The notes beneath the pieces are model-generated. The model did no database searches and was not told the DNA's origin. It worked only from the letters and a program-made list of their open reading frames with translations. A DNA stretch of 64,000 nucleotides from Aotearoamyces nothofagi (Eukaryota; Ascomycota; Leotiomycetes; Leotiales; Tympanidaceae): the NCBI GenBank assembly GCA_015345905.1, contig JADDTR010000004.1, forward strand, positions 1,054,001-1,118,000, in the 5' to 3' direction. Position numbers and translations under genes: made by a program. Positions 23,967 to 51,384 of the stretch are shown here, piece after piece. How positions within the stretch are numbered: the first letter of the stretch is position 1; each line of letters opens with the position of its first letter.

Positions 23967-25769
23967 ATGTATTCTGTAGTGAAGCCGAACGCATGGATTG
24001 TCTTGCGACTGCCGTCAGATACCCTAAAAGTCCTTCAAGCTGTGCCAAATACGTGAGTGACAATGGATGGAGTGAGCATCTTCATGTCCCACTTGTCTCC
24101 TACCTATAATTCTCGAGTGCTAATATGCCGCAGCACTATATCGATAGGGAAATATGGCAGCTTCCAAAGTAATCTAATTCTCGACCGGCCCTACAACCTG
24201 ACGTACGAACTTCAGGACAGGCAAGGAAACCAACCCGCAGAGCTACGGATTGTCCCAGCATCAGAACTGCATGCAGACACAATTGCAGAGGAGGAAGCAG
24301 CTGCGAACCCATCGGATGACGATAAGGTTACCATTGGAGGGGATGGAGTTGAATTTCAGCTCGTCGGTGAAAATGGCGAAGTCATCATGCGGTCGAATCG
24401 AGAAACAATAGATGATTCGGCGCGCCAGACTTTGACAATGGAAGAAATTGAAGCCCTGAAACGAGACGGCGCAGATGCTGGAAAAGACCTCATTGCGAAA
24501 TTGATGTTGTCACACACGGCGTTGGACCAGAAGACAGCATTTTCTTTGGCCAAGTATAAGCTTCTGAAAACGAAGAAATATCTACGGCAATTTACGGTTC
24601 TACCTCTCGATGTGCCCATGCTCACGCATTGGCTTATCGAGGAGAAGGATCCTGGTAGGATAATGGAAATGAGGGAAGAGTTGCTGGCCTTGGTGGGCTG
24701 TTGGGGAAATGTACATTTCAGTGGTGAACCTGAGACAGCAATGGACGCTGGACTTTCGAATAGTCCAGGTGCAGGGCGCTGGCTTGTGGTAGATGAAGTA
24801 GGTGGACTTTTGGTCGCAGCAATGGCTGAGCGGATGGGCGTGCTCACACCGTCTGAAGACGAGGACGATGACTTCCTGGCCCATCCCATCCCATTAGAGT
24901 CTACAGCATTAGAACCACAACTAAACGGCCACCCACAACCAATCCATCCACCAGACGACCTTCAACCCACCTACGCCACATCCAACACCCTCACTATGGT
25001 CCATACCAACGCGCAACCAAACCTCTCTCTCCTCAAATACTTCTCTTTCACTCCGGACATCCCCCAACCAGGCCACCCCCTAAGCAAGCATCTCAAAACC
25101 CTTTCCTGGCTCCAGCTCCTCTCTCCCGATGACGACACAACCTACTCGACCCCTCCACCCACCGCAAGCCCGACCGAACTCTCCACCTGGAAATCCGGCA
25201 AGCGCGGTACATATTATCGGAAACGCCGACGCTGGGCACGCATCCACTCCGTCGTCGACGAGACTCGTGCCGGCAACTTCGACGGCCTCGTCGTCGCCAG
25301 CGCCATGGACCCCGTCGGCATCCTGCAAGCATGCATCCCGCTCCTCCGCGGCGGCGCACCGGTCGTCATCTACTCGCCCGCTATCGAGCCCCTCACGCAC
25401 CTCGCAGATCTCTACTCGACCAGCCGAAGGACCGCTTTCATCACAAACCCGCCCGAGGACGGCGATCTGACTCGATGGAAGGGAAACGAGGATTTCCCGC
25501 TCAATCCTACTTTGCTGTTGGGCGTCACGGTGCAGACGAGCAAGGTGAGGCAGTTCCAGGTCTTGCCCGGCAGAACGCATCCTCTGATGACGGGGCGCGG
25601 TGGTGCGGAGGGCTATGTCTTCACAGGGACGAGGGTCTTGCCAGCGGAGGGAAGGGTTGAGGCGAGAGGGAAGTTTAAGAAGAGGAAAATCGAAGCTGAG
25701 GGCGAATCTGTTGCTGTGGTTAAGGAGGTGGGGATACTAGCGTCACAGACCACCGTCTCGCCATTATAG
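23967..25769 (+). CDS. TRM6: tRNA (adenine-58-N1)-methyltransferase non-catalytic subunit
   Basis: Partner of the catalytic subunit TRM61 in the nuclear enzyme that makes m1A58 in the T-loop of tRNAs, needed for initiator tRNA stability. Exons 23967-24052 and 24134-25769 give 573 aa. The N-terminus MYSVVKPNAWIVLRLPSDTL then TISIGKYGSFQSNLILDRPY is typical of Gcd10/Trm6. The core RSNRETIDDSARQTLTMEEI, KRDGADAGKDLIAKLMLSHT and FSLAKYKLLKTKKYLRQFTV is the family signature. The C-terminal half has a Rossmann-like fold without a SAM motif (NFDGLVVASAMDPVGILQAC, GGAPVVIYSPAIEPLTHLAD). An acidic Pro-rich insert of about 100 residues separates the halves. Confidence 0.93.
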
Positions 25770-35202: not shown

Positions 35203-35769
35203 AGAGTTAAATAATAGATGCTAGCCCATCTTACAAATAAATGTATTATATTGTACGTGAGGTGATATGCAAAAGCCACTAACCACTTATATCAATGTAT
35301 CATCCAACAATCAGTCAATCAATTGACTTGGTATTCTGTAGGACCATTTAAATAGCCAATAGCCAATTGCTTTCTAATCCGTCGCTCTCGTTTAGAGAGT
35401 TCTTTCAACCATTTTACACCTGTAGGCTGTATAATCTGAACCTCCTTAGTAGCAGCTCCTTAGAACAACCTGGCTTTCACTACTAAATAACAAAACGGTG
35501 ACTTTTTGGAAGCAGACTAGTCATTATATATACAAGTTATAATTTTAAGCAGTTCAATGAGTTAGCATTTTACTCAGCTACAGTTATGCCGAAAGGTCAC
35601 CATTACTGCAAATTCGAGAGTCGGTCACGTGTCTTGTTTTGAGCGGTGCGCCTGACACTTTAGGCTACTATCAAAATATATTTGTCGTACATGAACATGT
35701 CGTAGTCAAACTAATTGGTAACGACCCCAACATTATGATCTAGCAATTCGCATTTTGCCCTAGATCAAG
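35203..35769. other. Intergenic between DYS1 and CWC27
   Basis: AT-rich, about 570 bp. A GGTCACGTG motif at about 35627 lies some 140 bp before the CWC27 start. No gene seen. Confidence 0.5.
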
Positions 35770-37374
35770 ATGTCCTCTCTCTATAATCTCGAACCTCAAC
35801 CCAACGCCTCTTGTATTCTTAAAACCACCTCTGGCGACATCTCCCTCGAACTATGGGCTCAACAAGTACCACTCACATGCCGAAACTTTCTCCAGCTCTG
35901 CCTCGACGGCTACTACGACAATACGATCTTCCACCGTCTCGTCCCAGGTTTTATTTTACAGGGTGGTGACCCTACAGGTACCGGCTCAGGCGGCGAATCG
36001 ATCTACGATGGCGGGGCTTTTGGCGAGGCTCGGGAAGAGAACGGCATATGGCCACTCGAAGAGAGGAAAGGGAAGAATGCAGGCTTGCAAGGTATTGGAT
36101 TTAAGGATGAGTTTCACAGTAGATTGAAGTTCAATCGGAGGGGTTTGCTGGGTATGGCGAACGAGGGGCCAGATTCAAATGGCAGTCAGTTCTTTTTGAC
36201 ACTGGGCGATACACCGGAGTTACAAGGGAAGAATACGCTATTTGGAAGAGTGGCTGGAGATACGATTTATAATCTGACGCGTATGGGAGAGGCGGAGGTG
36301 GAAGGAGACAGACCTGTGTATCCTTTGAAGGTTACTGGGGTGGAGGTTTTGGTAAACCCCTTCAAGGATATGGTCGCAAGGCCAAGGACCGCGGCGCCAG
36401 TTACAAAGAAGAAGGAGAAGGCCAAGACGAAGAAGAGGAAGGGAGGGAAACAGCTTTTGAGCTTTGGGGGTGATGAGGGAGATGCCGAGGAAGCTGCGCC
36501 AGTATTGAAGAAGACAAAATTCGACACAAGGATTGTGATGGACGTGGAGGATAATACTCCACGCGAGACAGCATCCAAGAAAGTTGAGAAGAGAGCAGAG
36601 AAGGTCATCAAGAAGCCAATATCAGCTGAATCGAGTCCAGAGCCCACTCCGGCACCCCAACCCCTGTCAAATCGTGCAGCCAAGGTTGAATCCCGGGATA
36701 TCTCGTCATCACCGGAACCTATACAGAAAGTATCATCACTACTAGACCGGACGAATGCTCAGATTGCAGAACTGAAAGCATCCATGAAACGAAATGTCCA
36801 AACGGCGCCTATCAAAGAGAAAAAGAAGTCGGCTCTAGAAGAGCTAATTCCAGAGACCTCCATCAGAGGGCGAAAACGACGAGGAGGCGGACTAGCAACG
36901 TCAGCTACTGACCAGCAATCGCTTGATATCCTGCGAGCCTTCCAATCAAAACTCGAAAAAGCACCCGCGGAAAAGGAAACCTCAGCAGCAACACCCGCAC
37001 CCGAAACCGCCCAGGAGACTCCAGATGACGAAGAAGCCGCACTCTGTGACCTACATTTCATAGCAAACTGCCAATCATGTAAATCGTGGGACACGCAAGC
37101 AGAAGGAGCGGATCCAGAAAATGACGACGACAGTGGATGGATGTCACATGCACTATCCTTCAAAGCAGATAAGCTGGGTAAGGATCTGAGTTATAGGAAG
37201 AAGGCCGAAGATGAACTTGTGGTTATCGACCCGAGAGAAAAGGCCAGGACGCTGAAGGAAGAGAAGAAAGCTCAGCGTGATGCCAAGAGCGGTGGGTCTG
37301 GAAGAGCATGGGATCAAGACAGGAATGCCAAAATGGCTAGGGCGTCGAATCTTGCTGGGAGAGGGGCTAGATGA
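35770..37374 (+). CDS. CWC27: Spliceosome-associated cyclophilin Cwc27
   Basis: An intronless 534-aa protein. Residues 1-200 are a cyclophilin domain: SCILKTTSGDISLELWAQQV, CRNFLQLCLDGYYDNTIFHR, LVPGFILQGGDPTGTGSGG, and GLLGMANEGPDSNGSQFFLT. The position of the usual active-site Trp is occupied by Glu (DTPELQGKNTLFGRV), the change known for CWC27, which acts as a spliceosome scaffold rather than a strong isomerase. The C-terminal half is lysine-rich and disordered (KKKEKAKTKKRKGGKQLLSF), then CDLHFIANCQSCKSWDTQ and DSGWMSHALSFKADKLGKDL, which are characteristic of this orthologue. Confidence 0.96.
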   Translation: MSSLYNLEPQPNASCILKTTSGDISLELWAQQVPLTCRNFLQLCLDGYYDNTIFHRLVPGFILQGGDPTGTGSGGESIYDGGAFGEAREENGIWPLEERKGKNAGLQGIGFKDEFHSRLKFNRRGLLGMANEGPDSNGSQFFLTLGDTPELQGKNTLFGRVAGDTIYNLTRMGEAEVEGDRPVYPLKVTGVEVLVNPFKDMVARPRTAAPVTKKKEKAKTKKRKGGKQLLSFGGDEGDAEEAAPVLKKTKFDTRIVMDVEDNTPRETASKKVEKRAEKVIKKPISAESSPEPTPAPQPLSNRAAKVESRDISSSPEPIQKVSSLLDRTNAQIAELKASMKRNVQTAPIKEKKKSALEELIPETSIRGRKRRGGGLATSATDQQSLDILRAFQSKLEKAPAEKETSAATPAPETAQETPDDEEAALCDLHFIANCQSCKSWDTQAEGADPENDDDSGWMSHALSFKADKLGKDLSYRKKAEDELVVIDPREKARTLKEEKKAQRDAKSGGSGRAWDQDRNAKMARASNLAGRGAR

Positions 37375-37705
37375 TTTGATGCTGAGAGATGAGATTTCAA
37401 AGATGGGCTATCCAGCGGGCCTGTATGGTATATACCGTCTTTGATTAGAAATGTCATAGTCGTAGGTCAAATCTATCATTCTGTCAACAACTACATAGCC
37501 ATCTGTTAAAACTCATTGTGACTAACTTTTGCGCATTTCAACTATCATACACCCGCCCAACTTAATCCAGATCTCCCCCATTGTCAAAATCCCCCCCCCC
37601 CTAAAGAACACCATGCAAAAAGAACTCATCGATCAACATCTCATCATCACCACCCAACCTCCCCCCCATCAGTCCCCCTTCCCCCCTCTCTCAAACCGCA
37701 AGCTC

Positions 37706-37809
37706 ATGCCCGTACCGGACGGCACAGCGACCGCAGCGATGGTGGCCGCAATCGCCGTTGTGGCACTGGCCTTTGGAATCTTCGTTCCCCGAGAAGCACT
37801 AGGTTTTTG
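37706..37809 (+). CDS. Possible first exon of a small membrane protein
   Basis: From the ATG at 37706 the frame reads MPVPDGTATAAMVAAIAVVA followed by LAFGIFVPREALGF, then a donor-like GTATGT at 37810. It would be a short N-terminus plus one hydrophobic segment. It has better codon-like composition than the surrounding low-complexity DNA. No convincing second exon was found, and the opposite strand also offers a spliced reading, so this is a weak call. Confidence 0.25.
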
Positions 37810-38660
37810 GTATGTTGGTTGGGTTGTCGTTGTTTGGGGGAGAGAGGAGGACGGAGGGGAAGAAAATGGGGAGATGATGGGGGGAAGAGGAAGGAGGGGG
37901 GGAAGAGGAAGGAAGGGGGGTAAAAAGAAGAAGAAAGGAGGAAGAAATACTCACCCTACAACACTCCCACCACCTCGCAACCGACTCATCCACCAATCCC
38001 CGACCTTCAAAGACGGAGGCGCACATCTCTTCTCTCTTCTTCTCTTCTTTTCTTTTTCTTCGGGCTTTGGGCTGGTTGTTTTCTCTTGCTGCTGTTCTTC
38101 TTCTCCTTCTTCTTACTGCTCGTGTTGGGAGGTCTGGGGTTGGGGTTTCGTACCGAGGTCCTGGATTGAGGAGAGGATGGTAGAATAGAGGATGGTAGAA
38201 TAGATGATGGCAGAGGATAGTACGGTAGAGTAGAGGAGAGGATTGTAGAATGGCAGTATGTACAAGTACATATATACTCCTTCAGCGGATGGAAAAGTCA
38301 ATGTCGATGTAGAAGATTGATATATCAGCATTTTCACTGTGTAGCTCCGCATTGGAGATTCGCTGGGTTTGGGAATTATGAGTTGTGAATCGTGAATTGG
38401 GAATTGTGAGTTGTGAATCGTGAATTGGGAATTGGGATTGGAATTGGGATTGGGATTGTGAATTCAGGAAGTGAAGGGAGAGGGAGAGGGAGAAGGAGAG
38501 GTTGATATGTCTGATATAAATAGATCTGGGTTTGGGTTGGAGTTGGGGTTGATGTATATATATGTGTAAATGTATATAAGTGAAAAAAGAAGGGGGGGGA
38601 GTCATTATTGCTGTAGTCGTTGCAGTGGGTCTTGCCGCTACAGTGGTTGTTGTTGTCGTT

Positions 38661-39116
38661 ATTCATCGTCACCGTTACTATCATTGTCACCGTTACCACC
38701 GTCACTACTATCACTATCACCACTATCATCATCATCACTATCACTACTATAATCATCATTACTATCATTACCACCACCGCCATTACCATCATCACCGCCA
38801 TCATTACTGCTATCACCACCGCCATTACTACCACTATCATCATCATCATCACGACCATCGCTACTATCACTATTATCATCATTACCACCACTATCGCTAT
38901 CATCATTACCATCGCCACTATTTTCATCACCCCCGCCGACATCATTGCTACTATCATCATCGCCATCATCACTGATACTATCGCTACCGTCACTATCGTC
39001 ACTATTACTATTATTACTATCACTATTATTACTATCACTATTACTTCTACTACTACTATTACTATCATTCTTATTACTACTATCATCACCACCATTACCA
39101 CTACCACTATTATCTA
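38661..39116. repeat. Long degenerate (A-Y-C)n triplet tract
   Basis: About 450 bp composed almost wholly of ACT, ATC and ACC triplets, with very few G on the + strand. All three + frames stay open (His/Tyr, Ile/Thr, Ser/Leu runs) simply because of the triplet content. This is a degenerate trinucleotide microsatellite. Confidence 0.85.
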
Positions 39117-39469
39117 TATCTCTAATCATTCTTACTCCCTCTCTTCCTTCTTCCCTTTACTATCTAATTGTTATAATCTCCAATTCTCAATCTCCAATCT
39201 CTACTCTATCTACCTTCCTTTCTATCTACCTCTCTATTTACTCCTCTATCCTCCTCTATATAAACTATATCAAAACTATATATTCTATATCCTATCATTA
39301 TAACCAAGCCAATCTCAACCTCGATCCCAAGCTTCCTCGACGCGATGCAGACCCAATCAGCCCGTTAGCAAGCCAGCCAGCGAGCCAGTCAGCGAATGCA
39401 CTGCTGTGTATTCAATATCCAGCTATTCCTCTACTATCCATCCGGCCGCCCCTCCTCCTCAAAGCTATC

Positions 39470-39600
39470 TTTACAACCCTTACAACCCTTAAGATCCTTA
39501 CAATCCTTACAATCCTCACGATCCCCATCCCAAGTATCTATCAACCAAGAATCCATCAACCAAGTATCAACCAACCAAGAATCCATCAACCAAGCACCCT
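39470..39600. repeat. Short tandem repeats (CTTACAAYCC and CAACCAAGWATCCAT types)
   Basis: Two successive tandem arrays: roughly 9-10-bp CTTACAACC-like units at 39470-39525, then CAACCAAG-ATC units at 39535-39595. Confidence 0.7.
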
Positions 39601-40120
39601 CCTCCTCTCCTCTACAAGAACTACTAATTGCTTCTACAGCCAATTTACAAAAATCTTGTAATAGAATTTAGAGAAGGGATATATCAATCTACCAATCTAC
39701 CAATCTATCAATCTACCAATCCCTCTACTAACTAGATCTACTCTCTATCCCAAAACCCTTCTAACGATAAGAATTTTTTTCTTTTTTTTAATCCTCTATC
39801 CTCAACCCTCTATCCTCTATCCTATCAAGAACCCCCCCCCCCCAAAAAAACCCCCTCCAGAGAAAAAACCAAACCCGAACAAACCCTCTCACACTACAAC
39901 GACATCACAAAACCTAAAACCGAAAGAATCTGCAGCGATGTATCATATCATATTGTAGTTTTTCATACTCCCAATTCCCCATCCCCGATCTTTTTATTTT
40001 CGATTTTCTCAGAACCGTGATTCTCCTCGATCATCATCATCAATATATATATATATAATCAAGAAAATCAACACAACCCCGCTCGCCGGCTCCGAGCTTC
40101 CAAAACTAGCTATCTCTATA

Positions 40121-40398
40121 GAATCAAGCCAGACAGCGAAGCCAGACAGCGAAGCACCAAGACAGAACCATAAAGCCCATCGATCAATCAGTCTAGATAG
40201 ATTAAAAAGAAAACGGCTCTGACGCTCGGATCGACAGGACAGAGAAGAGAGTAAGGATATAGCCAGCCTCCAAACCAGCCATTCCCATCCCCATGGATCA
40301 AGCCAATCGCGAAGCCAAAGACAGACAGACAGACAGACAGAATTATAAGCACATCGATCTTATCAGTCTAGATAAAAAAACGGCTCTGACGATCGATA
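40121..40398. repeat. Diverged direct duplication (two copies about 105 bp, offset about 175 bp)
   Basis: Copy one (about 40121-40230) and copy two (about 40295-40398) share ATCAAGCCA, GCGAAGCCA, a GACAGA-rich stretch, CATCGATC, ATCAGTCTAGATA and AAACGGCTCTGACG in the same order. The second copy has an expanded (AGAC)n run. Confidence 0.7.
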
Positions 40399-40861
40399 GG
40401 GCGCGTCACGAGCCAAAGCTACAGAAAGCAGGGAACGTGACAGGCGGGGCGAATTCTGTTCTACTTGTATTTTTTTATTATTTTATTTTATTTTTTAATT
40501 TCCTAAATTTCCTCCTTCTTCTGCGATCCCCCTTCCCCTTATTTTTGCAGGGTCCGGCGCGCGAGAGATCTTTTGGGCTAGGAGGGGGGGGCCTGTGGGC
40601 GAAGCAAGGGGGGTGCGTGCGTGTCTAGGACCGAAGTGGCATGGGGGAGGCGGCTAGCGAGTGAGTGTGCTTAGATGATGGGAGAGATGGGGAGAGATTG
40701 GAGATGGTGGGAGATGGGAGATGGTGGGAGATGGGAGGGGGGAGGGAAGGGAGGGGGGAGAGAGAGACGCGCTGGAGAGGGATGGGTTGGGGGATGGCAT
40801 TTCGGGTTTTGAAGGGGGATGGATTGCTGGTGCTGGTGTTGGTGTTGGCGCTGGATTGGAT

Positions 40862-40890
40862 TGGAATGGAATGGAATGGAGTAGAGTAGA
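40862..40890. repeat. GGAAT / GTAGA pentanucleotide repeats
   Basis: Three GGAAT units are followed directly by about three GTAGA units, then a GA run. Confidence 0.65.
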
Positions 40891-41261
40891 GTAGAGAGAG
40901 AGATGAGGGATCTCGAGAAGACAAACAGTGGGTATGCAACTCGCAAAGCAAGGCAGAGAGAGAGAGAGAGAGAGATGCTATGCAGAGATGCCATGCAGCG
41001 TGCCTCATGCATTGCGACCGGAACCCCGTTGGGAGAACCCATCCATCTCGCTCTTGCGAGACTCGGAGTATATCCACCGGTGTATATATATACATATCTG
41101 CACTGCGTCTATACACATATATACACACATATACATCTATATATATATCTATATCTCTACAGCGCGATACCAGAAGCAAGCTCCAAACACAGCAAAACGC
41201 CAAAAACAAAAAGACGCCGAACGGGGATGCCACGCAAGCAGAATAGACTTGCGGGGGGGGG

Positions 41262-41302
41262 GGATCCAGGATCCAGGATCCAGGATCAGGATCAGGATCA
41301 GG
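41262..41302. repeat. GGATCCA then GGATCA tandem repeats
   Basis: Three 7-bp GGATCCA units grade into three 6-bp GGATCA units directly after a run of nine or more G. Confidence 0.7.
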
Positions 41303-41640
41303 AGTTTTTGGGGGGGCAGCGTTAGATCCGAAGCAGATGGCGTAAAAACAGAGCCCGAAGGGTCGTGCTTGAGGGAGGGATGGGAATGGGGGGGGATCAG
41401 GGACGGGAGACGCGGAGACTTTTCTGGCGAGCGGTGCGGTGAGCGGTGCGGTGCTGGGACGGAGAAAGGTGGCAGCGAGAGCCGGTGGTGGGTTTGGCTT
41501 GGACTGCGTTGGAATTGGGCGCGCCGCGCTACTGGGTTCTGGGTGGGCGGAGGGAGGGAGGGGAGGGGAGGGGAGGGGTGTTCTGCCGGGTGGCTTGGCT
41601 GGGCTGGGCGAGATGTATGTATGTATGTTAGTATGTTAGT

Positions 41641-41759
41641 ATGGGCGGGGCGGAGGGGAGGGAGGGGAGGGGAGGAGGGAGGAGGAGAGAGGAGATGAGA
41701 GGAAGAGAAGAGGAGAAGAAAGAGGAGAAGAAGAGAAGAAAAGACAAGAGGCAGCAAGT
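41641..41759. repeat. Purine-only tract, G-rich
   Basis: About 115 bp of G and A with almost no pyrimidines, containing many GGGG and GGAGG runs. Such DNA can form G-quadruplex or triplex structures. A similar G-rich tract occurs at about 48117-48225. Confidence 0.7.
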
Positions 41760-41840
41760 AGGCAGAGGACATGACATATCGCCGCCCAGCCCTCCTGCTC
41801 TCCTCTCCCCTCCTCTATCCTATCCTATCCTCTATCCTGA

Positions 41841-41868
41841 ACAGTACAGTACAGTACAGTACAGTACA
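41841..41868. repeat. (ACAGT)n pentanucleotide repeat
   Basis: Five to six tandem ACAGT units in a row. Confidence 0.8.
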
Positions 41869-42085
41869 AGGCAGTATAGTAGCCGTTCGGCACCCATCCC
41901 CAGCTAGCACACGGCGTCGGCAGGCGCGTGTAGGCGAGGCAGAGGCGAGTACAGTAGAGCCGAGCAGCAGAGCAGAGTACAGTAGAGCAGAGCAGAGACG
42001 AGACGGGCAGGAAAGAGCAGAGTAGAGCAGCAGCGTACGTTCTCGAGATGGGGAGTGGCCGCAGGGAGAGAGGAGAGAAGAGAAG

Positions 42086-42130
42086 AGGACAGGACAGGAC
42101 AGGACAGGACAGGACAGGACAGGACAGGAC
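42086..42130. repeat. (AGGAC)9 pentanucleotide repeat
   Basis: Nine perfect tandem AGGAC units. Confidence 0.9.
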
Positions 42131-43253
42131 GTTGTTAGGCCAGAGGCTGAGGCTGAGGCTGAGGTTTTTCCTGTGCTGCTGGCAGTGGTGGGCAGTGATG
42201 GTGGGCAGTAGAGGTGGGCGGTAGAGGATGTCTATACTGTCTATAGTGGTCTACAGTGATCAGTAGAGGTGGCCAGCAGTGGTGATCTATCTACAGCCCA
42301 CCGAAGCCAGCCAGCCAGCCAGCAGAGCCGAGCGCCCACCACGGCCCAAGCCCGCGCGCCCCTATCCAGTGCATCATAGCTCGGCGCCGGCCACCCGGGC
42401 GCGCCAAAGCCGCGCTCTGTCGGGCCAACGAGCTCGACGCAGGAGGGGGGGGGGCTGCTGCTGCTGCTAGATCCGCCATCCCATCCCATTCCATTCCTCG
42501 CTGCAGCGCGAGGTGGGTAGAGAGAGGGAGGGAGGGCGAGGAATGGTCCCAGGGAGAGAGAGAGATGCGCGATGCGAGGCTGGCATGGGCGCATCTGTTA
42601 CCAGACCAGAGGCATGCGATGCGGTGCGGTGCGAGGAGGGGGCAGTGGAAGTTGGGGGAGTCTCTGCAGCTGCAGCTGTACAGCACCGTCGTTTTTTTTT
42701 TCTTCTTCTATCCAACACCCCCAGTACAACAGGACATCATATCATATCACCAGCAAGCAGAAGCGACGCAGCGAATCCGGGGACCAGGGAGAAGGGAAGG
42801 AGAGGAAAGAAAGAAGAAGAAAAAAACCCCCCCGGGACGCATCCGCAGAAGCCGAGCGTGGCCGGTTGGGCAGGCCGGGACGGCTGGTGCCGAGGGCGGC
42901 GCTGGGTGCGGTCTGTCGCGGGTTAGGGGGGGGGTTTCTTTCTTTCTCGACTTTACTTTCTTGCTTTTTTTGCTGGTGGGAGTCGGGTTGGGTTGGGTTG
43001 GTGAGGAAGGTGTGTGCGGGATGGAGATGGATGGGATGGGCAGTGTGGATGTAGATGTAGATGGATGGGCACTGTGGATGGGCACTGAAGACGGACGGGC
43101 TGGACGGGTTCCAGCAGCGCGGTTGGCGTGCGCACACTAGGGGGTTGTGGGCTGGGTGCTGGGGCGTGCGGCGGCGGGATTTTGTTGCGCGCGCTGTAGC
43201 TGTTAGCTGTAGCTGTAGCTGTTGCTGTTGCTGACGAGCTGCGGCTTCCTGGC

Positions 43254-43295
43254 GACGGGTGACGGGTGACGGGTTATGGGTTATGGGTTATGGGT
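43254..43295. repeat. (GACGGGT)3 followed by (TATGGGT)3
   Basis: Two adjacent perfect 7-bp arrays that share the GGGT half, suggesting one array changed into the other. It is telomere-like in look only. Confidence 0.8.
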
Positions 43296-43692
43296 TCCTG
43301 GCTACAGGCGACGGGCTACAGGCTACAGGGCCTACAGGGCCTGCGGTGCCTGCCGCGCCTCCCGGCTTCAGGGGCGACAGCCTCTCTCTCTCCTCGCAGA
43401 GCTGGACGGTGGCTGCGGCTACAGTGGCTGCGGCTACAGCTACAGCGCACCCAGTAAGTTCGCTCCTCGAGATACAGTACAGCATGAAAGAGGAGCAGGG
43501 AAGGAAGGAAGGTATCGGGATCCAGAGATATACATCTTCTACTGCCACTTATCGCAGAGGAAGTCCAGAGCTATTTCTGTAGTCTACACTTCTGGAGAGG
43601 CGTTGGCTGTATACTGTATCCTGTATAATCTCCATCTCTGTCCCTTCTTTCTACCTCAACTCGACCAACAGCATCAAATCCATACAACCCAG

Positions 43693-43931
43693 CATCTTCA
43701 TTTCATGGGGGATTCTCCCCCAAACCCCCTGTCCTCGCTGCGCTCGCTCGCAGATATAGCCCTAGATATTCAGGGCTGCAGACCAGCGGAGCCATCAGCT
43801 GCAGAGTCGGGCTGCGCGTGTGTGACGCGGAGATGTATGTATTTTGTTTATAGTCAAGCTATGGCTATGGCGGAGAGCGAGCGCAGCGAGGACAGGGGGT
43901 TTGGGGGAGAATCCCCCATGGAATGAAGATG
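43693..43931. mobile_element. MITE-like element with 56-bp terminal inverted repeats
   Basis: Arms 43693-43748 and 43876-43931 are reverse complements over 56 bp with one mismatch. The arm starts CATCTTCATTYCATGGGGG, contains a smaller internal palindrome GGGGGATTCTCCCCC and ends GTCCTCGCTGCGCTCGCT. The 127-bp interior has no coding capacity. No clear target duplication is visible. The form fits a non-autonomous inverted-repeat element. Related arm sequence occurs twice near 48.2-48.5 kb. Confidence 0.75.
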
Positions 43932-43934
43932 GGA

Positions 43935-43957
43935 TAGCATAGCATAGCATAGCATAG
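43935..43957. repeat. (AGCAT)4 pentanucleotide repeat
   Basis: Four tandem AGCAT units directly next to the right end of the MITE-like element. Confidence 0.8.
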
Positions 43958-44135
43958 CGTACAGTAAGTAGCAAAATCACAGCGGCCAGCCTACGCGCCT
44001 GCGCCCACCTGCCAGCCAAGCCAAGCCGACACTACCAGCGACGAACTCGCCCGGCAGGCTTGGGCTCCAGCAGCAGCAGCAGCAGCGCCAGCGCCAGCGT
44101 CAGCGTCAGCAGTACGCGACCGACAGATGCCCGGG

Positions 44136-44170
44136 CTTGCCTTGCCTTGCCTTGCCTTGCCTTGCCTTGC
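44136..44170. repeat. (CTTGC)7 pentanucleotide repeat
   Basis: Seven perfect tandem CTTGC units. Confidence 0.9.
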
Positions 44171-45012
44171 CACAGCCAAGGTAGGTACTGTGCTGTACCT
44201 AGGTGCCTCTGCTGCCACCGTCGCCCGTCCATCGTCCATCACGTCCGCATGGCCGCAAAGCTAATATAGATCACCTTTTATAACCTTTTGCACCTTTTAC
44301 AACACTTTATAACATTTTATACCCTTTTCTGATAGCCAGCCCCGTCCTGTTCCCGTCCTGTTCCCGTCCTCTGCGCACCGCCCGCCAGCTCCTCGCGCCG
44401 TCGCAAGCGGGATAGCCTCGCCTCGCTTACGGCCTAGCTTCTCTCCCTTCCAGGCTCAGCGTGACGACTGAGCAAAAGTCACTCACACACTTCCCTCCCG
44501 GACCTCGACCAACTCAACCACATCTCGACCATCGCGACCTTCTCCACTGCTGCCGTCTCGTCGAGATCCTGGAATCCGCCCTGTCGACTGCTTCACGGCC
44601 TGGCCCCGCCCGCTGACCCTGCCTCCACGGTGCCGCGACCGCACGTCGCGCCAGTCTCGCACCCCGAAGTATCTATCTAGGAGAAGGAGAAGGACAAGGA
44701 CAAGGAAAAAGGGCTCCCGCACGCATCCGGGCCTCACGACGACAGGCCATCGCCGGGCACTGCACCTCGACGGCCGACGGCGACTCACGACTCTGCACTG
44801 CTGGTGCAGGCTCACAGGCTCACCGGCTCACAGGCTCACAGGCTCGACGCAAGGTGCCACGATAGGCTTCAGCTGCGCGAGCTCCGAGGGCCTGAACTTG
44901 GTAGGCGATTTAAGCTTCGACAGCGTGCCTCCGCCGGCTCCTTGCATTGCCGTTGGCACAGCAAACCTCCTACATTCTCTATCTACCACTACATAGTCCT
45001 GGCACCGTCGCC

Positions 45013-46981
45013 ATGGCCTCCCAGCACGACGAAATGTTCTACGATCCGATGAGCCGCTCCCCTGGCACCGCGCTGCCCCGCGGCTACAACACGCTGGGCA
45101 TCAACCGGCAGCCCTCGAGACAGTTCGAGAGCTACGGGCAGCCCGTGGGATACGGAGGAGACGATTATGCTGCCGCGCGCTACGACATATCACGAACGGA
45201 GAGAGCGGCGCCACAGTTCCTCAGCTCTCCCTATACCGGCTACGACTCCCAGACGTGGAACTACAACGCCAGCAACGCCGGCGCGGCCACGATGGGCCCG
45301 ACGTCCCGTGCGAGATCGTCGGCTAGAAGAGCCGCTCTGCCCAATGTGAGTAGAGAGCCGATCCGTGACGAGATTCCTGATGATCGTGAGTGACTAACAG
45401 GCCCTGAAGACATGGATGGAACCCCAGCAGCAGCCCCAATACTCGCAGATACCGACCGGATTAGGGATGAATGGGCTGGCAAACGGACAGGCGAACAGCG
45501 ACTACAACCGGCCGCCGTCACGACCCGGGAGGAACTCGCCCCCCCACGACTCGGAGGAGCTCATCCCGACGGCGATCGTCATCAAGAACATCCCGTTCGC
45601 GGTCAAGAGGGAGCAGCTCACCGATGTGATGACGCAGCTGCAGCTCCCGCTCCCATACGCCTTCAACTACCATTTTGACAACGGCGTGTTCAGGGGCCTT
45701 GCCTTTGCCAACTTCTCGAGCCCCGAGGAGACGGCCCTGGTGATCGAGAGCATGAACCATCTGGACCTGCAGGGAAGAAAGCTTCGGGTCGAGTACAAGA
45801 AGATGCTGCCACTGCAGGAGCGTGAGCGGATTGAGCGGGAGAAGCGTGAGCGTCGTGGACAGCTCGAGGAGCAGCACCGCCCCATGCAGCAGACCCTGGG
45901 CCTGCACAACGCACCTTCTATATCGTCGCTCTCACCAGTCCACCCCGCGCCCTCGCCTTCTCCTGTTTCGATGAGATCGGGAGAGCCTGCCACTAGTAAG
46001 TTGACATGTCTGATACGCGTGGGATATGCTACTGACGTCTGCGTAGAAATCGACATGAATGACCCCCAGACGCTCGAGTACTACTCTAGACTCATTGTGT
46101 TCAAGGACGACGAGACCCGCAAGGTCATGGTATTCGAGCCTCCTCTCCAGGCCATATACCGCAGGATCATCCACGAGCTTGCGCACAAGATGGGCTTGGA
46201 GCACGAATCTGCTGGAAGTGGCGACCAGCGACATGTGCAGATCTACAAGGACAAGGCAACCATGCGCGGCATGACCTCTCAGAACGTCTCCTATGACACG
46301 CAGCGTCGGAACCTGGCTCGCGCCGCCACGATGGACTTCAACGAGCGCGACACCCAGTACCACGGACTCCGCAACCAGAACTCTGGCCTCCTGGATCTCC
46401 CCGGATCGCCTGGCATCGGTGGCATCAGCGGCCAGCGCAGCCTGCGCGAGGCCAAGTCGTTTGGCGATCTCCAGGCCCGCACGGCGTCTCCAGCTCTCTC
46501 CAGCTCGAGCTTCCCTGCCAACCTGACCCAGAACATCAGCCGCTTCACGGACAGCTATGGCATGGCCAATGGGACGGGGGCGGCAAACCTGACGCCCGCA
46601 TTAGCTGCGAACAACAGAGATGACTCGTACCTCTCCAACGGCTTCGCCAACATGTCGCTTGGATACGAGAGGCCGTCAAACACGACTTCCCGCCTCAACG
46701 GACGCCTTGGTGATGGCCACCCAACAGCCGGCGCAATCGGTAGCCAGCGCGGCCTGAATCTTGGCGGTCTCAACGGAAGCTATGAAGATCAGCAGCGCAG
46801 TGGAGCCTCTACCGTTCCAGAGAGGCAGCCACGTGGCCCCGGGAGCGAATGGGGTGCTGGATTCAGCAGGCCTCGACAGAATGGACATGGTGGCCGCAGT
46901 GGCAGCGGAGACCTTGACGTTAACGACCCCGACCAAAATAGTGACCGTAACGGCCAAAACAACACCTCACGATACATGTAA
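45013..46981 (+). CDS. PIN4: PIN4/Cip2-like RNA-binding protein with RRM and R3H domains
   Basis: Exons 45013-45345, 45401-45995 and 46047-46981 splice in frame to 620 aa. Residues about 165-245 form an RRM (ELIPTAIVIKNIPFAVKREQ, GVFRGLAFANFSSPEETALV, LDLQGRKLRVEYKKMLPLQE). An R3H domain is at about 312-380 (DPQTLEYYSRLIVFKDDETR, RRIIHELAHKMGLEH, HVQIYKDK). This order is that of S. pombe Cip2 and S. cerevisiae Pin4, cell-cycle and stress RNA-binding proteins. N-terminal and C-terminal parts are Ser/Asn/Gly-rich and disordered. The ATG at 45013 (MASQHDEMFYDP) is preferred; an in-frame Met lies 22 codons upstream. The gene is GC-richer than its neighbours and sits alone inside the repeat island. 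Confidence 0.88.
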
Positions 46982-47578
46982 GACCTTTACGAGTATGACA
47001 TAACGAATTAGAAGCGACGGCCATAAAAAAAGCCTTGGCGACTACCGGATTGTGTGTGTTCCCATACGCATTCTTCGGTTTCCTCACTACATGTAATTAT
47101 TGATTCCAAACCCTTGTCGCTTCCTTGTGGACCTCTTAATTTCTTTTCGAGTTCACCTTCCCGCATTGCCTTGGCTATGATAGGAAACGGGATTTTCACG
47201 ACGCACTTTCTACATCACGACAACAGGATACCTTGTACAGCGACTGGGCAACCATCACGAATGACGCTGATATGACCTGTGATACTACCGACACACAACA
47301 ACACACCTCACGCATACCTTAACCTTGATGATATATTGAACTCACCTAATCACACCTTATATATTCGAGTTCTTCCTGACGGACAGGTATCAACATGACT
47401 GGGGGTATTTTTCTCTCAAATGGACGGGCTCGGCTTTGTGGGATTGGTTCCATAGAGGATCAACAAATGTTCGCATATTGTTTCGTGGAGCTTTAATAAG
47501 GGATCTGTTCCACCTGTGGTGCTTTTGCCTTTCGAGGGTAGCTCAATACCCTTCTTTTGTCCTGTTGACATTCCCCAC

Positions 47579-47639
47579 CAATCAATCAATCAATCAAATC
47601 AAATCAATCAAATCAAATCAAATCAAATCAAATCAAATC
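47579..47639. repeat. (AATCA)n / (AAATC)n pentanucleotide repeat
   Basis: About 60 bp of ATCA tetramers grading into AATCA pentamers, roughly 12 units in all. Confidence 0.85.
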
Positions 47640-47948
47640 TTTATTGAGAATACAAAGCCCACAATGTTTAGAAACGGGGCGAAAATGGACTCTCTTGTTA
47701 CTGGTGCTGCCAGCCCCAATCCCCTCTCCCCCTCCCTCACCCGTCTCTTATTACTTGTACTCTTAAAAAACATTTATTTTATTTTATCTACTCTCTCTTT
47801 TTTTTTTTTTTTGCATCCTGCATCATGCCTCCTTAACATGCGCGAAAACGGGACACACACACGCGTCTCTGCATCCCGGCCTGGGGCCGGCCTGATATCC
47901 TGATATCAAATCATGATTGTATTTGCCCTTGGATTTCCCTTTTTTTCC

Positions 47949-48042
47949 CGCTTGCGCTTGCGCTTGCGCTTGCGCTCTGGGTGTCTGGGTGTCTGGGTGT
48001 CTTTTTGTTGCCTCTTGGCGGTTGGGATGGGATGGGATGGGA
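47949..48042. repeat. Cluster of (CGCTTG)4, (TGGGTGTC)3 and (GGGAT)n
   Basis: Three different short arrays within 95 bp: CGCTTG hexamers (47949-47974), TGGGTGTC octamers (about 47979-48002) and GGGAT pentamers (48023-48042). Confidence 0.75.
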
Positions 48043-48220
48043 CTCCTTAGCTCCTCTTCTTTTTCTTTTTCTTTTTTTTTTTTGGGTTGTGGTGTTTTGG
48101 TCTGGGTAAGCTGGTTGGGGGGGTGGGAGGGAGAGGAGGAGGAGGGGTGGGAGGGAGATGAGGGGAGGGGAGGGGTGGGAGGGAGATGAGGGGAAGAGAG
48201 AAGAGGAAGAGAGGGGGAGG

Positions 48221-48275
48221 AAGAGAGAGCGCAGCGATGCCTAGGGGGTTTGGGGGAGGATCCCCCATGAGAGGA
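48221..48275. repeat. MITE-arm-related repeat, copy A
   Basis: A 55-bp sequence sharing with the 43.7-kb element the core GGGGGTTTGGGGGAG, ATCCCCCATG and AGCGCAGCGA. Differs from copy B by one base. Confidence 0.75.
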
Positions 48276-48449
48276 CAGGAGAGAGGGGAAGGAGAGAGGG
48301 GAAGGAGAGAGGGGAGGAGAGAGGGGAGGAGATGGAGTGAGGGATAGAAGATAGAAGAGATGGAAAAACCCACAAGCCTAAAAACAAAGCACGGAATATA
48401 GAACGGACGAGGATGAGGACGAGGTGAAAGAGGAGGGGAGGGGAAGAGG

Positions 48450-48504
48450 AAGAGAGAGCGCAGCGATGCCCAGGGGGTTTGGGGGAGGATCCCCCATGAG
48501 AGGA
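48450..48504. repeat. MITE-arm-related repeat, copy B
   Basis: Same orientation as copy A, 229 bp further on, 54 of 55 bases identical. Flanks are also purine-rich and similar but not identical. Confidence 0.75.
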
Positions 48505-48721
48505 TAGGCGAGGAGGGAAGAGAGGCCAAAGGGCCGACAAGATAGATACCAAACAGAGGCAGGCAGGGCAATAATAGACGAACAGAAGGACGATTCGAAG
48601 GAACGGCTGACCTAGCCCTCGAGAGCCGAGATAAATACAAATACATATATATATATATATATATATATACGATGAAACGAAGGGAGGATCTCGAGATTAA
48701 GTTTCTTGCTTTTCTATATTG

Positions 48722-48740
48722 ATGGTATGGTATGGTATGG
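48722..48740. repeat. (ATGGT)n pentanucleotide repeat
   Basis: Three to four tandem ATGGT units. Confidence 0.7.
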
Positions 48741-49083
48741 ATATCCCTCTCTCTCTCTAGCTCGCAAGCCGTCAGCAGACCCCGCATCAGCATCAGCTAC
48801 CCCGCCCCGCCCCTCGGCACGGGCGAGGGAAAGGAGACCGACGCCTAAAGGATATATGTATATATAGCGGCAGTCTAGATCCTATGCCGAATCCCTTAAC
48901 CGAGGGCCCCTTTCTTTCAGTAGCCGCCGCCACCCCATATAGACCAGACCGGGCCGCCCTCATGAATCGTGCCTCGTAAACAGGTAAAGTGCGCCGACCG
49001 TTGCGGCTTCTGATATTTTGCCCTCCCCCGAACCTCCGCGCTTGAATAACTCCGTGCTGTGAGCAGCTCGCAATGTGGACGAC

Positions 49084-51384
49084 TCAAGCCTTCTTCCGGC
49101 GCTTGCTGGGACTGCGGTGTCCGGCCGAGTGCTGGGACTCGATCGTCTCTACGGGGCTTGCGCCGTCGCTTGATCCGGCGGTTTCGACGATTCGTCCTCC
49201 GCCCGTGACTCCGTCGATTCCAGTTCCTCCAAGCCCATCGTGGGTACCATCCATTCCAAAGTCAAATGGAGCCCCACTAGTGTCTCCGATGACACCATGG
49301 TTGAATGCATCGTAGTTGTAATCGCCACCATCACCATTTGTATAATAGGCTCCAGTGTCCAAAAATTGATCCAAGTCGAGATTGTTTCCAGCCAACGGAC
49401 TATCATCGCCAGCATCGAAGTACTGCCCATCGTTTAGACCGTTCAGACCAGGGATAGAGCCAGACGGACTGAGCGGTTGGATATAGGTCTGAACGTGCTT
49501 CAATTTCTCCTCTTGCTCATTCTGCATCCGGATGAGCTCATCAATCTCGGCCTGAGTGTAATTGATCTGCTCAAGGCTCGGCGGTGGCGGTGGGGTTGGC
49601 GAAACAAGCGCGTTGTTGCTGCCAGCAGAAGATCCACCGGCGATAATGTTCAACATATCAGATCGCTGCTCGGAGGTGAGGGGCGAATTGCCATTGGACC
49701 TCTCGTAATGAGATAGGACATCGGGGAAATTCATGGCTGGTTTCAAGCCTGCACGGGCACCACTTGCATTGGTATTATTTATGAGGTTCATGATGTTCTG
49801 CTGTGGATTGACCTGGGAGCTCTCAAACTCGTGTTTGATCGGTGGCGACTCTGCGTTGGAAGGAGATTCGAACAGCTCTTCGATGGCGCCTGGGCGAGGA
49901 GATGTAGACATCCGGTATTGATTTGATTGTGGGGTTTGCATCGAGACTGCTGCACTAGCAGTGGCTGGCTGACTGTGAGCACCGACCGGAGGAGCCATCA
50001 ATAACCGCTGCGGCCTCCTGTTTGGACTGGCACTTCCAGGTGCCTGCTGCTGTTGGTTGCTAAGATCGCCCATATCAACCACGTTTCCTTGATGTTGCTG
50101 CTGGTCCTGAGGCATGCCGTTTGCAAACATCTGCGAAATATTGGGGGTTCCTTGTCCATCCAGACTTCTGTTGTAGACAGTTGCAAGGAATGTGAGGATG
50201 GCATTTATTGAGCTCTCATGTCGATCATGCAGAGTCTGGAATGCGATAGATTGCTGGTAAAGTTGGTTATGGTCTTTCCGTAGTCGGGATATGGCGTTTG
50301 AGATAGCACCCTGTTGCTTCTGAATCTCTTGTAGTTGGCTCTGTACCACGGCCATCTCTCGTCTTTGTAGTGGCCCAGATTCTGGTGCGGCGGAAATTGC
50401 TCTTTGGCTACCTTGCACTGGAAGTTGTCCATAGCTTGCTCCGTATGTCTCATCAACACCATCTCTTCCATCCTCGTCACTGTCGCCCTCAACACCATCC
50501 TCCGTCTTCACTCTGGCTCCTTTCCCCTTCTTCTGACCAGTGCCACCTTTTGGTTTATTGATCAGCCATAACAGATTTGGGTGACCACGCTTAAAGTATG
50601 GATTGTAGTATTCGCTAGGGCTCTTGTTCTTTCGCTCGCTCGCCTTCATTGAATTATCAGAGAGCCCTACTCTTTTGTGAAAACCATACATGTTGAGTTG
50701 TCGAACGAATGAGGCGTAATTATTGTGCTTGAATAGCTCCGGAATCAACGTCTTTGCAAACTCATCCTCGTCGAGCACCACAAATGAGTCCCCACGATCC
50801 GACCACCGAATGAGCTCTGTGTTTTTTGACTCGTCTAAAAAGCTGTCCAGATAAAGTTAGCAGCCGAAACAGATGTAAACGGAGAAAGGCGCATACCTGC
50901 TCAGTTTCTGCACAAATGGAGGAATCTGCTTCCGTTTCGATTGTGCATCTCTCTTCGCTATCACAGCTCGCTCCTCCAAACGTTCCACACTGTCATTCTC
51001 CTCCATAGCGCCGTTCATGCCTTGAGGGTCTAGCATGGAGTCATCACCAAACGCTCCCCAGGGATCACTGACGTTGTCGTATGCCTGCCGCGGCGCAGTG
51101 GAGACGAGTTGCCGACTTATGGGTCTTCGTGCTAGTTGTGTCGAGGGTGTGGGCATAGGCTGCTGATATGCCAGATTCGATACTGCGGTCTCACTGAGCC
51201 CATTCATACTATAAGCCGCTGGGTCCGTATAATTCGCGTTGTCAGGGCCCTGACCCCATCTCGAAAACTGGTCATTCGAGAGCTGCGACGGTGCGGCTGC
51301 ATAGGCTTGCTGAATCTGAGGCTGTTGAAGAGCCGGCGACGTCCCTGGAGCTGCTCGCTTTCTTGGGTTTGCCGCTGGAGGCAT
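49084..51384 (-). CDS. HSF1: Heat shock transcription factor HSF1
   Basis: Two exons (50897-51384 and 49084-50842, 54-nt intron) encode 748 aa. The HSF DNA-binding domain spans about 154-260: PPFVQKLSSFLDESKNTELI, SFVVLDEDEFAKTLIPELFK, HNNYASFVRQLNMYGFHKR, then YFKRGHPNLLWLINKPKG. A heptad-rich coiled coil follows at about 320-390 (MAVVQSQLQEIQKQQGAISN, AISRLRKDHNQLYQQSIAF), the trimerisation region. A long Asn/Gln/Ser/Pro-rich activation region and a basic end (SPSKRRKKA) complete it. The intron inside the DNA-binding domain supports the model. Start MPPAANPRKRAAPG is favoured over an in-frame Met 33 codons upstream. Confidence 0.94.

Follow-up and report, generated by a model that had tools for sequence, protein, structure and literature searches.

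A dense island of pentanucleotide arrays beside a PIN4-like gene of Aotearoamyces nothofagi looks like one of several in the genome

What fills the DNA on either side of a single gene with short tandem repeats, and is the cause peculiar to that place? The question arises at a PIN4-like RNA-binding gene of the fungus Aotearoamyces nothofagi, in a stretch of 64 kb (contig C4:1054001–1118000, referred to hereafter as the window, whose first letter is position 1) of the 25.48-Mb, 55-contig genome. Here a 7.6-kb spacer reaching from a cyclophilin gene to the PIN4-like gene (37375–45012, dense in tandem repeats whatever their period) and a 2.1-kb spacer reaching from the PIN4-like gene to an HSF-type gene (46982–49083, with both Tandem Repeats Finder (TRF) loci and perfect period-5 arrays) form what we term the island; both spacers are intergenic, bordered by the coding ends of the three genes. 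An earlier note on this DNA had attributed the many pentanucleotide repeats around the gene to a local process favouring 5-bp slippage, or to a late-repairing or recombining domain. We find a genuine, dense island that stands out within the window, yet is one of several in the genome; it appears to be a dense instance of something this genome does widely, rather than the outcome of a special local process.

Taking as an array any perfect period-5 tandem of at least three copies, we located 11 in the upstream and six in the downstream spacer, i.e., 17 of the window's 18 in 9.7 of its 64 kb, which agrees with the near-confinement that the earlier note had described; the single array of the other 54 kb is a CCCAT x3 at 24880, inside the Gcd10 open reading frame (ORF). 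Density across both spacers is 1.75 per kb (upstream 1.44, downstream 2.85). The excess is real because Markov sequences of orders 1–4, trained on the same DNA, hold on average only 0.01, 0.03, 0.07 and 0.48 arrays against the 17 observed (largest number over 200 runs, three). The 17 arrays fall into 13 unit classes, and all nine that had been named in the vicinity of the gene are present, every one on the forward strand: upstream lie perfect copies of (TGGAA)3.8 (equivalent to GGAAT, 40862–40880), a (GAGTA) array (equivalent to GTAGA, 40879–40900, 3.6 perfect copies of 4.6 in total), and perfect arrays of (ACAGT)5.6 (41841–41868), (AGGAC)9 (9.0 copies, 42086–42130), (ATAGC)5 (equivalent to AGCAT, 5.0 copies, 43934–43958) and (CTTGC)7.2 (44136–44171); downstream lie an (AATCA)n array of 12.8 imperfect copies (47580–47639) and perfect arrays of (TGGGA)4 (equivalent to GGGAT, 4.0 copies, 48023–48042) and (ATGGT)3.8 (48722–48740).

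Five-base units are not alone in this concentration, a feature that had gone without mention before: arrays of period 4 number eight in the spacers versus one in the remaining window, those of period 6 six versus none, and those of period 7 three versus none. By TRF, repeats of all periods cover 35.2% of the upstream spacer (8.0 loci per kb) and 24.1% of the downstream spacer, as against 1.1% of the window to the left and 0.6% to the right; nine of the 61 best-scoring loci upstream and four of the 13 downstream are best fitted by period 5. Enrichment in the island thus extends to tandem repeats whatever their period, and period 5 is the most frequent among perfect arrays with units of 4–8 bases; the lean toward five-base units that the earlier note had described is borne out. 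The ATG of the PIN4-like gene is at least 842 nt away from any five-base array, its stop at least 599 nt and the coding end of the HSF gene at least 344 nt, a spacing as expected if transcribed ends are constrained (a fit noticed after the fact). Arrays positioned relative to genes are also the subject of a eukaryote-wide account of repeat enrichment (PMC11686069), although the effect described there concerns mono- and dinucleotide repeats lying no more than 100 bp from a gene border, whereas five-base arrays here stay at least 344 nt from every neighboring coding end.

The island's units recur throughout the genome. Pattern searches with four units taken from the window itself returned 169 positions for (ACAGT)4, 123 for (AGGAC)4, 25 for (ATAGC)4 and 17 for (CTTGC)4, with one array yielding several positions. 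Collapsing the positions by hand on contigs C1–C16 gave, among the matches listed (which reach C16:709296 for ACAGT and C23 for AGGAC), at least 56 ACAGT, 32 AGGAC, 8 CTTGC and 6 ATAGC arrays. Within this same set the different units keep company: of 32 AGGAC arrays, 6 have an ACAGT array within 3 kb versus 0.63 expected (island omitted, 5 of 31 versus 0.61) and 6 have one within 10 kb versus 2.03 (p 0.014; island omitted, 5 of 31 versus 1.98, p 0.046), while CTTGC lies within 3 kb of ACAGT or AGGAC in 2 of 8 cases versus 0.24 expected (p 0.021). ATAGC gave 1 of 6 in the same 3-kb test (p 0.17). Five other loci at which array types co-occur carry 13, 4, 17, 7 and 7 five-base arrays per 9 kb (the highest being L031 with 17 and L029 with 13); because they were chosen for carrying arrays, they establish that comparable islands exist and give no frequency for them.

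For a background drawn regardless of content, we took one 10-kb stretch from each of contigs C1–C20, always at the same coordinate. These 20 stretches hold 23 five-base arrays in 200 kb (0.115 per kb, or 115 per Mb; at most five per stretch), overdispersed among stretches (chi-square 47.4, 19 d.f., p 0.0003) and tracking arrays of periods 6–8 (Spearman 0.64, p 0.003, 20 stretches). Against GC content the array count gave a Spearman coefficient of 0.10 over all 20 stretches (p 0.68) and 0.54 over the 16 above GC 0.42 (p 0.03). Noncoding gaps were delimited by a crude codon-usage segmentation, such that some may be missed genes; 21 of the 23 arrays fall in gaps of at least 2 kb, and two in the 39 shorter gaps (35.6 kb). 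Among the long gaps, eight of GC 0.505 or higher (35.0 kb) hold 13 arrays, nine of GC 0.42–0.505 (30.3 kb) hold none, and six AT-rich ones (39.6 kb) hold eight. Pattern searches, fetched loci and sampled gaps alike reveal that other spacers of this genome carry the same kind of arrays.

We consider it likely that the island consists of two weakly constrained spacers beside a regulatory gene, in which short-period repeats grow by slippage; that it is one of several such islands and among the densest seen; and that its five-base lean belongs for the most part to the genome and not to the locus. Replication slippage would create and extend tandem repeats, whichever short period they have, and relaxed constraint in long spacers would let arrays survive, selection not removing them; the lean toward five bases could have its source in mismatch repair that reaches no further than loops of four bases. 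The least costly account of the island is such slippage where constraint is weak, and the place itself is ordinary in kind; the parts that matter are the genome's five-base lean and its unit preference.

Several observations weigh against this account and must be set beside it. Some of the comparison loci equal the island, whereas gaps of similar length sampled regardless of content are sparser, and so the equal density in other spacers that, by the earlier note's own test, would tell against its proposal is seen only at loci preselected for arrays. The densest sampled gaps reach 1.06 per kb (those above 3.5 kb) and 0.77 per kb (2–3.5 kb), in comparison with 1.44 and 2.85 in the island's spacers, and the island as a whole stands at ~15 times the sample mean. 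Its pentanucleotide share of tetra- plus pentanucleotide arrays, 17 of 25, exceeds that of the sample, 23 of 51 (p 0.018). Neither spacer length alone nor GC alone serves as a predictor: none of the nine sampled gaps that reach 2 kb or more with a GC of 0.42–0.505 holds an array, GC is uncorrelated with array count over the 20 stretches, and the downstream spacer has a GC of only 0.49 (upstream, 0.53). Because density and pentanucleotide share both lie above the sample, a modest local factor may act at the island.

A local process, in the form of a late-repairing or recombining domain around the PIN4-like gene that favours 5-bp slippage, nonetheless appears decidedly unlikely to us. The island's density does sit at the extreme of the range observed and its pentanucleotide share above the sample, and the hot intergenic regions of S. 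cerevisiae are described as having long arrays of mono-, di- and trinucleotides at about double the frequency (PMC2267716), a system which likewise has arrays clustered in particular intergenic regions. In that study, however, the association with meiotic hotspots is weak or absent for units of 4–6 bp. Periods 4, 6 and 7 are concentrated in the island alongside period 5, the same units occur genome-wide and cluster elsewhere, and comparable loci exist. With L031 at 17 arrays and L029 at 13, density and period spectrum do not set the island apart from all other spacers (those loci being preselected and the sampled gaps sparser), and the notion of a process particular to this locus, as first put forward, finds no support.

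The lean toward five bases is better sought at the level of the genome. Fungal microsatellite surveys, such as those of Aspergillus (PMC5611378) and Heterobasidion (PMC4696308), describe the same perfect short arrays, non-random and frequent outside coding sequence; tri- and tetranucleotides dominate there, whereas in our fungus pentanucleotides nearly equal tetranucleotides in the sample, exceed them in the island, and form dense clusters. At the same copy threshold, the survey of four aspergilli has 12–29 five-base arrays per Mb and a pentanucleotide share of tetra- plus pentanucleotides of 0.21–0.27 (PMC5611378), and a pooled fungal survey at five or more copies gives a share of 0.29 (PMC8070597). 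The sample's 115 per Mb is about four to ten times the published rates of the four aspergilli, and its share of 0.45 (23 of 51) differs from 0.272 at p 0.005 and from 0.288 at p 0.010, a comparison to be read with the cautions that arrays in clusters lack independence, that the search programs are not the same and that counts are small. Islands of pentanucleotides of this kind in filamentous fungi were not found described in the open-licence literature searched. Among the papers listed there, nothing of use emerged on repeats in the long spacers of regulators, on clustering of microsatellites in fungi or on the sequence of the dispersed repeat described below.

One explanation of this lean, compatible with slippage in weakly constrained spacers such that both can hold together, is a bias toward five-base repeats throughout the genome: repair would correct loops of up to 4 nt, five-base slippage would escape as in S. 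pombe, and the island would merely tolerate the arrays. Reporter experiments in that yeast show that tetranucleotide repeats, but not (CTGCC)6, lose stability in msh2, msh6 and mlh1 mutants, that changes in (CTGCC)6 are mostly one-unit gains, that Msh3 has no evident mismatch-repair role, and that mismatch repair is inactive on loops in pentanucleotide repeats (PMC5427490). A ceiling of four nucleotides would likewise leave five-base slippage uncorrected here, where it is counts and MSH gene presence, in place of reporters, that speak to it. Arrays of at least 15 nt step up as this would predict between periods 4 and 5 (sample 11 versus 23, island 4 versus 17), in line with the raised pentanucleotide share. 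At 20 nt or more, in contrast, the step is gone from the sample (6 and 6; island 1 versus 7), periods 6–9 (at least two copies) are at least as common in the sample as period 5 at 18, 20 and 25 nt, and at five or more copies the sample has only four penta- and six tetranucleotide arrays, the counts being small and clustered throughout.

A search of the genome for MutS domain I gave six matches, which we read as four genes; Msh3, Msh2 and Msh6 are the best matches of three open stretches, respectively 656, 662 and 673 codons long. Homologues of MSH2, MSH3 and MSH6 with long open frames are present, and loss of these genes is therefore rejected as the cause of the lean; with all three in place, nothing found in gene content distinguishes this fungus, and the ceiling would be carried over from S. 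pombe by analogy. Nor does a repair ceiling explain why some units are preferred over others (ACAGT over its mirror, 169 to 0). On balance, we regard a repair ceiling behind the genome's bias as a tentative possibility. Should the five-base excess hold genome-wide, genome sequence could reveal the loop-size limit of mismatch repair, and a simple reporter could test it.

Certain units are strongly favoured: the mirror of ACAGT, (TGACA)4, has no position in the genome against 169 for (ACAGT)4, the mirror of CTTGC has none and that of ATAGC three (the control for AGGAC is uninformative because its reversal belongs to the same class). CpG in the mirrors of CTTGC and ATAGC may explain part of the bias; the mirror of ACAGT contains no CpG, and as single motifs in the sequence examined ACAGT and its mirror occur 3219 and 2273 times, a 1.4-fold difference. 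A general cause in units that form hairpins was also considered. The earlier view that the units are unrelated, and not the spread of one repeat, stands insofar as different units lie adjacent to one another and no unique shared flanks were seen among 21 ACAGT/ACAGG arrays; it requires qualification in that some units are so strongly favoured.

Those flanks bear directly on a further alternative, namely that a mobile or duplicated repeat spread in blocks, with the arrays as its copies. Between loci, the flanks of the 21 arrays match over at most 57 nt, in the manner of other short repeats, the longer matches being overlapping flanks inside one locus; the window's two ACAGT/ACAGG arrays take part in none of the between-locus flank matches of this set. 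Block spread of one repeat was rejected on these grounds, and although a 45-nt dispersed repeat (described below) is present both in the island and elsewhere, the distribution of the island's 17 arrays over 13 unit classes also speaks against copying, which we hold to be highly improbable.

The genes adjoining other islands suggest another idea, that selection retains the repeats because they serve regulator genes as adjustable promoter elements. In eight island-like loci 20 ORFs were scanned; eight have Pfam matches, which include RRM, Velvet, Myb and bZIP genes but also Sec23-, fungal rhodopsin- and P450-like genes and a kinase fragment (below cut-off), and 12 have no Pfam match. The Velvet and fungal rhodopsin domains fit a filamentous fungus. 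A test on contigs C1–C16, the ones covered by the array lists, used the four array types among the matches listed, with the window's own island left out, distances running from the domain match instead of the gene start, and direction read by eye from the strands. An array lies within 5 kb at 4 of 20 bZIP, GATA and homeodomain loci, in each case on the upstream side and at most 2.5 kb from the domain match, and at 1 of 34 proteasome and mitochondrial-carrier loci, on the downstream side (random places, 0.056). Counting the upstream side only, regulators and controls differ (4 of 20 versus 0 of 34, one-sided Fisher p 0.015); the difference fails when direction is ignored, both at 5 kb (4 of 20 versus 1 of 34, p 0.057) and at 10 kb (4 of 20 versus 2 of 34, p 0.13). 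The bZIP family was moreover chosen once a member had turned up in L033, itself selected for carrying arrays, and without bZIP the upstream test gives 2 of 10 versus 0 of 34 (p 0.048). As a weak lead, arrays may favour the upstream regions of regulator genes, yet regulators may simply own long spacers, and retention by selection seems unlikely to us.

A broader conjecture, which we put forward as doubtful, would join these strands: the microsatellite spectrum would record the reach of mismatch repair, with loops of up to 4 nt corrected and five bases the shortest unit to escape; ACAGT and ACAGG would be favoured by their own structure; and the fast-changing arrays would fill spacers upstream of regulator genes.

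The PIN4-like gene itself (45013–46981, forward strand; exons 45013–45345, 45401–45995 and 46047–46981) splices to a clean open frame of 620 codons plus stop, and is intact as had been stated. Its domains match R3H (3.9e-15) and RRM_1 (1.5e-4) in Pfam; we presume the PIN4-like label from this pair of domains. To its left lies a cyclophilin-type prolyl isomerase (stop-to-stop frame 35764–37374, forward strand; PF00160, 7.2e-42) and to its right an HSF-type transcription factor (stop-to-stop frame of the 3' part 49084–50856, reverse strand; PF00447, 1.8e-28). Nine ORFs of the window were scanned, yielding Pfam matches to Gcd10, Myb, deoxyhypusine synthase, cyclophilin, R3H+RRM, HSF, glutaminase A and MINDY, with one of the nine lacking any. 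Within the island, 20 ORFs of at least 150 aa were listed, and none of the 10 scanned exceeds the Pfam cut-off (one sub-threshold match, E 0.042), whereby a hidden gene was rejected.

A G-rich dispersed repeat of ~45 nt, with core GCGAGCGCAGCGAGG..GGGGGTTTGGGGGAGaATCCCCCATG, occurs at four sites in the island and genome-wide. Here it forms an inverted pair with 73-nt arms (43693–43765 and 43859–43931) and two direct copies 229 nt apart (48209–48291 and 48438–48520, forward strand); over the genome, single copies, inverted pairs and tandem clusters are all found. An exact 25-nt core gives 26 matches, and a DNA search with the repeat gives 84 matches at no fewer than 43 distinct places. The flanks of eight copies are mostly unrelated, two copies on C3 having common flanks. 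The layout resembles that of bacterial REPINs; a search of a prokaryote genome collection gave one match, in one contig.

Other features of the upstream spacer are of lesser weight. A long imperfect triplet tract of ATC/ACT/ACC units spans 38662–39156 (complexity 0.41); the coding-like minus-strand frame over the same interval was rejected as a gene for its low complexity and is read as a by-product of the triplet repeat. Just 3' of the cyclophilin gene, a short open frame at 37613–37815 (forward strand) contains a hydrophobic stretch and could, from its sequence, be the first exon of a small membrane protein; the enclosing ORF has no match in a Pfam scan. A 22-nt direct repeat (40207–40228 and 40374–40395, 91% identity, spaced 167 nt) is preceded at both copies by DNA that is also similar, as judged by eye, as if a local duplication of ~170 nt had diverged.

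Among the AT-rich DNA encountered, stretches L009, L010 and L012 have a GC of 0.31–0.35, TpA/ApT of 1.21–1.30 and (CpA+TpG)/(ApC+GpT) of 0.73–0.91, values that we take to resemble those of repeat-induced point mutation. The same two ratios are 0.83 and 1.32 in L021 (GC 0.38), and 0.82 and 1.33 in the upstream spacer.

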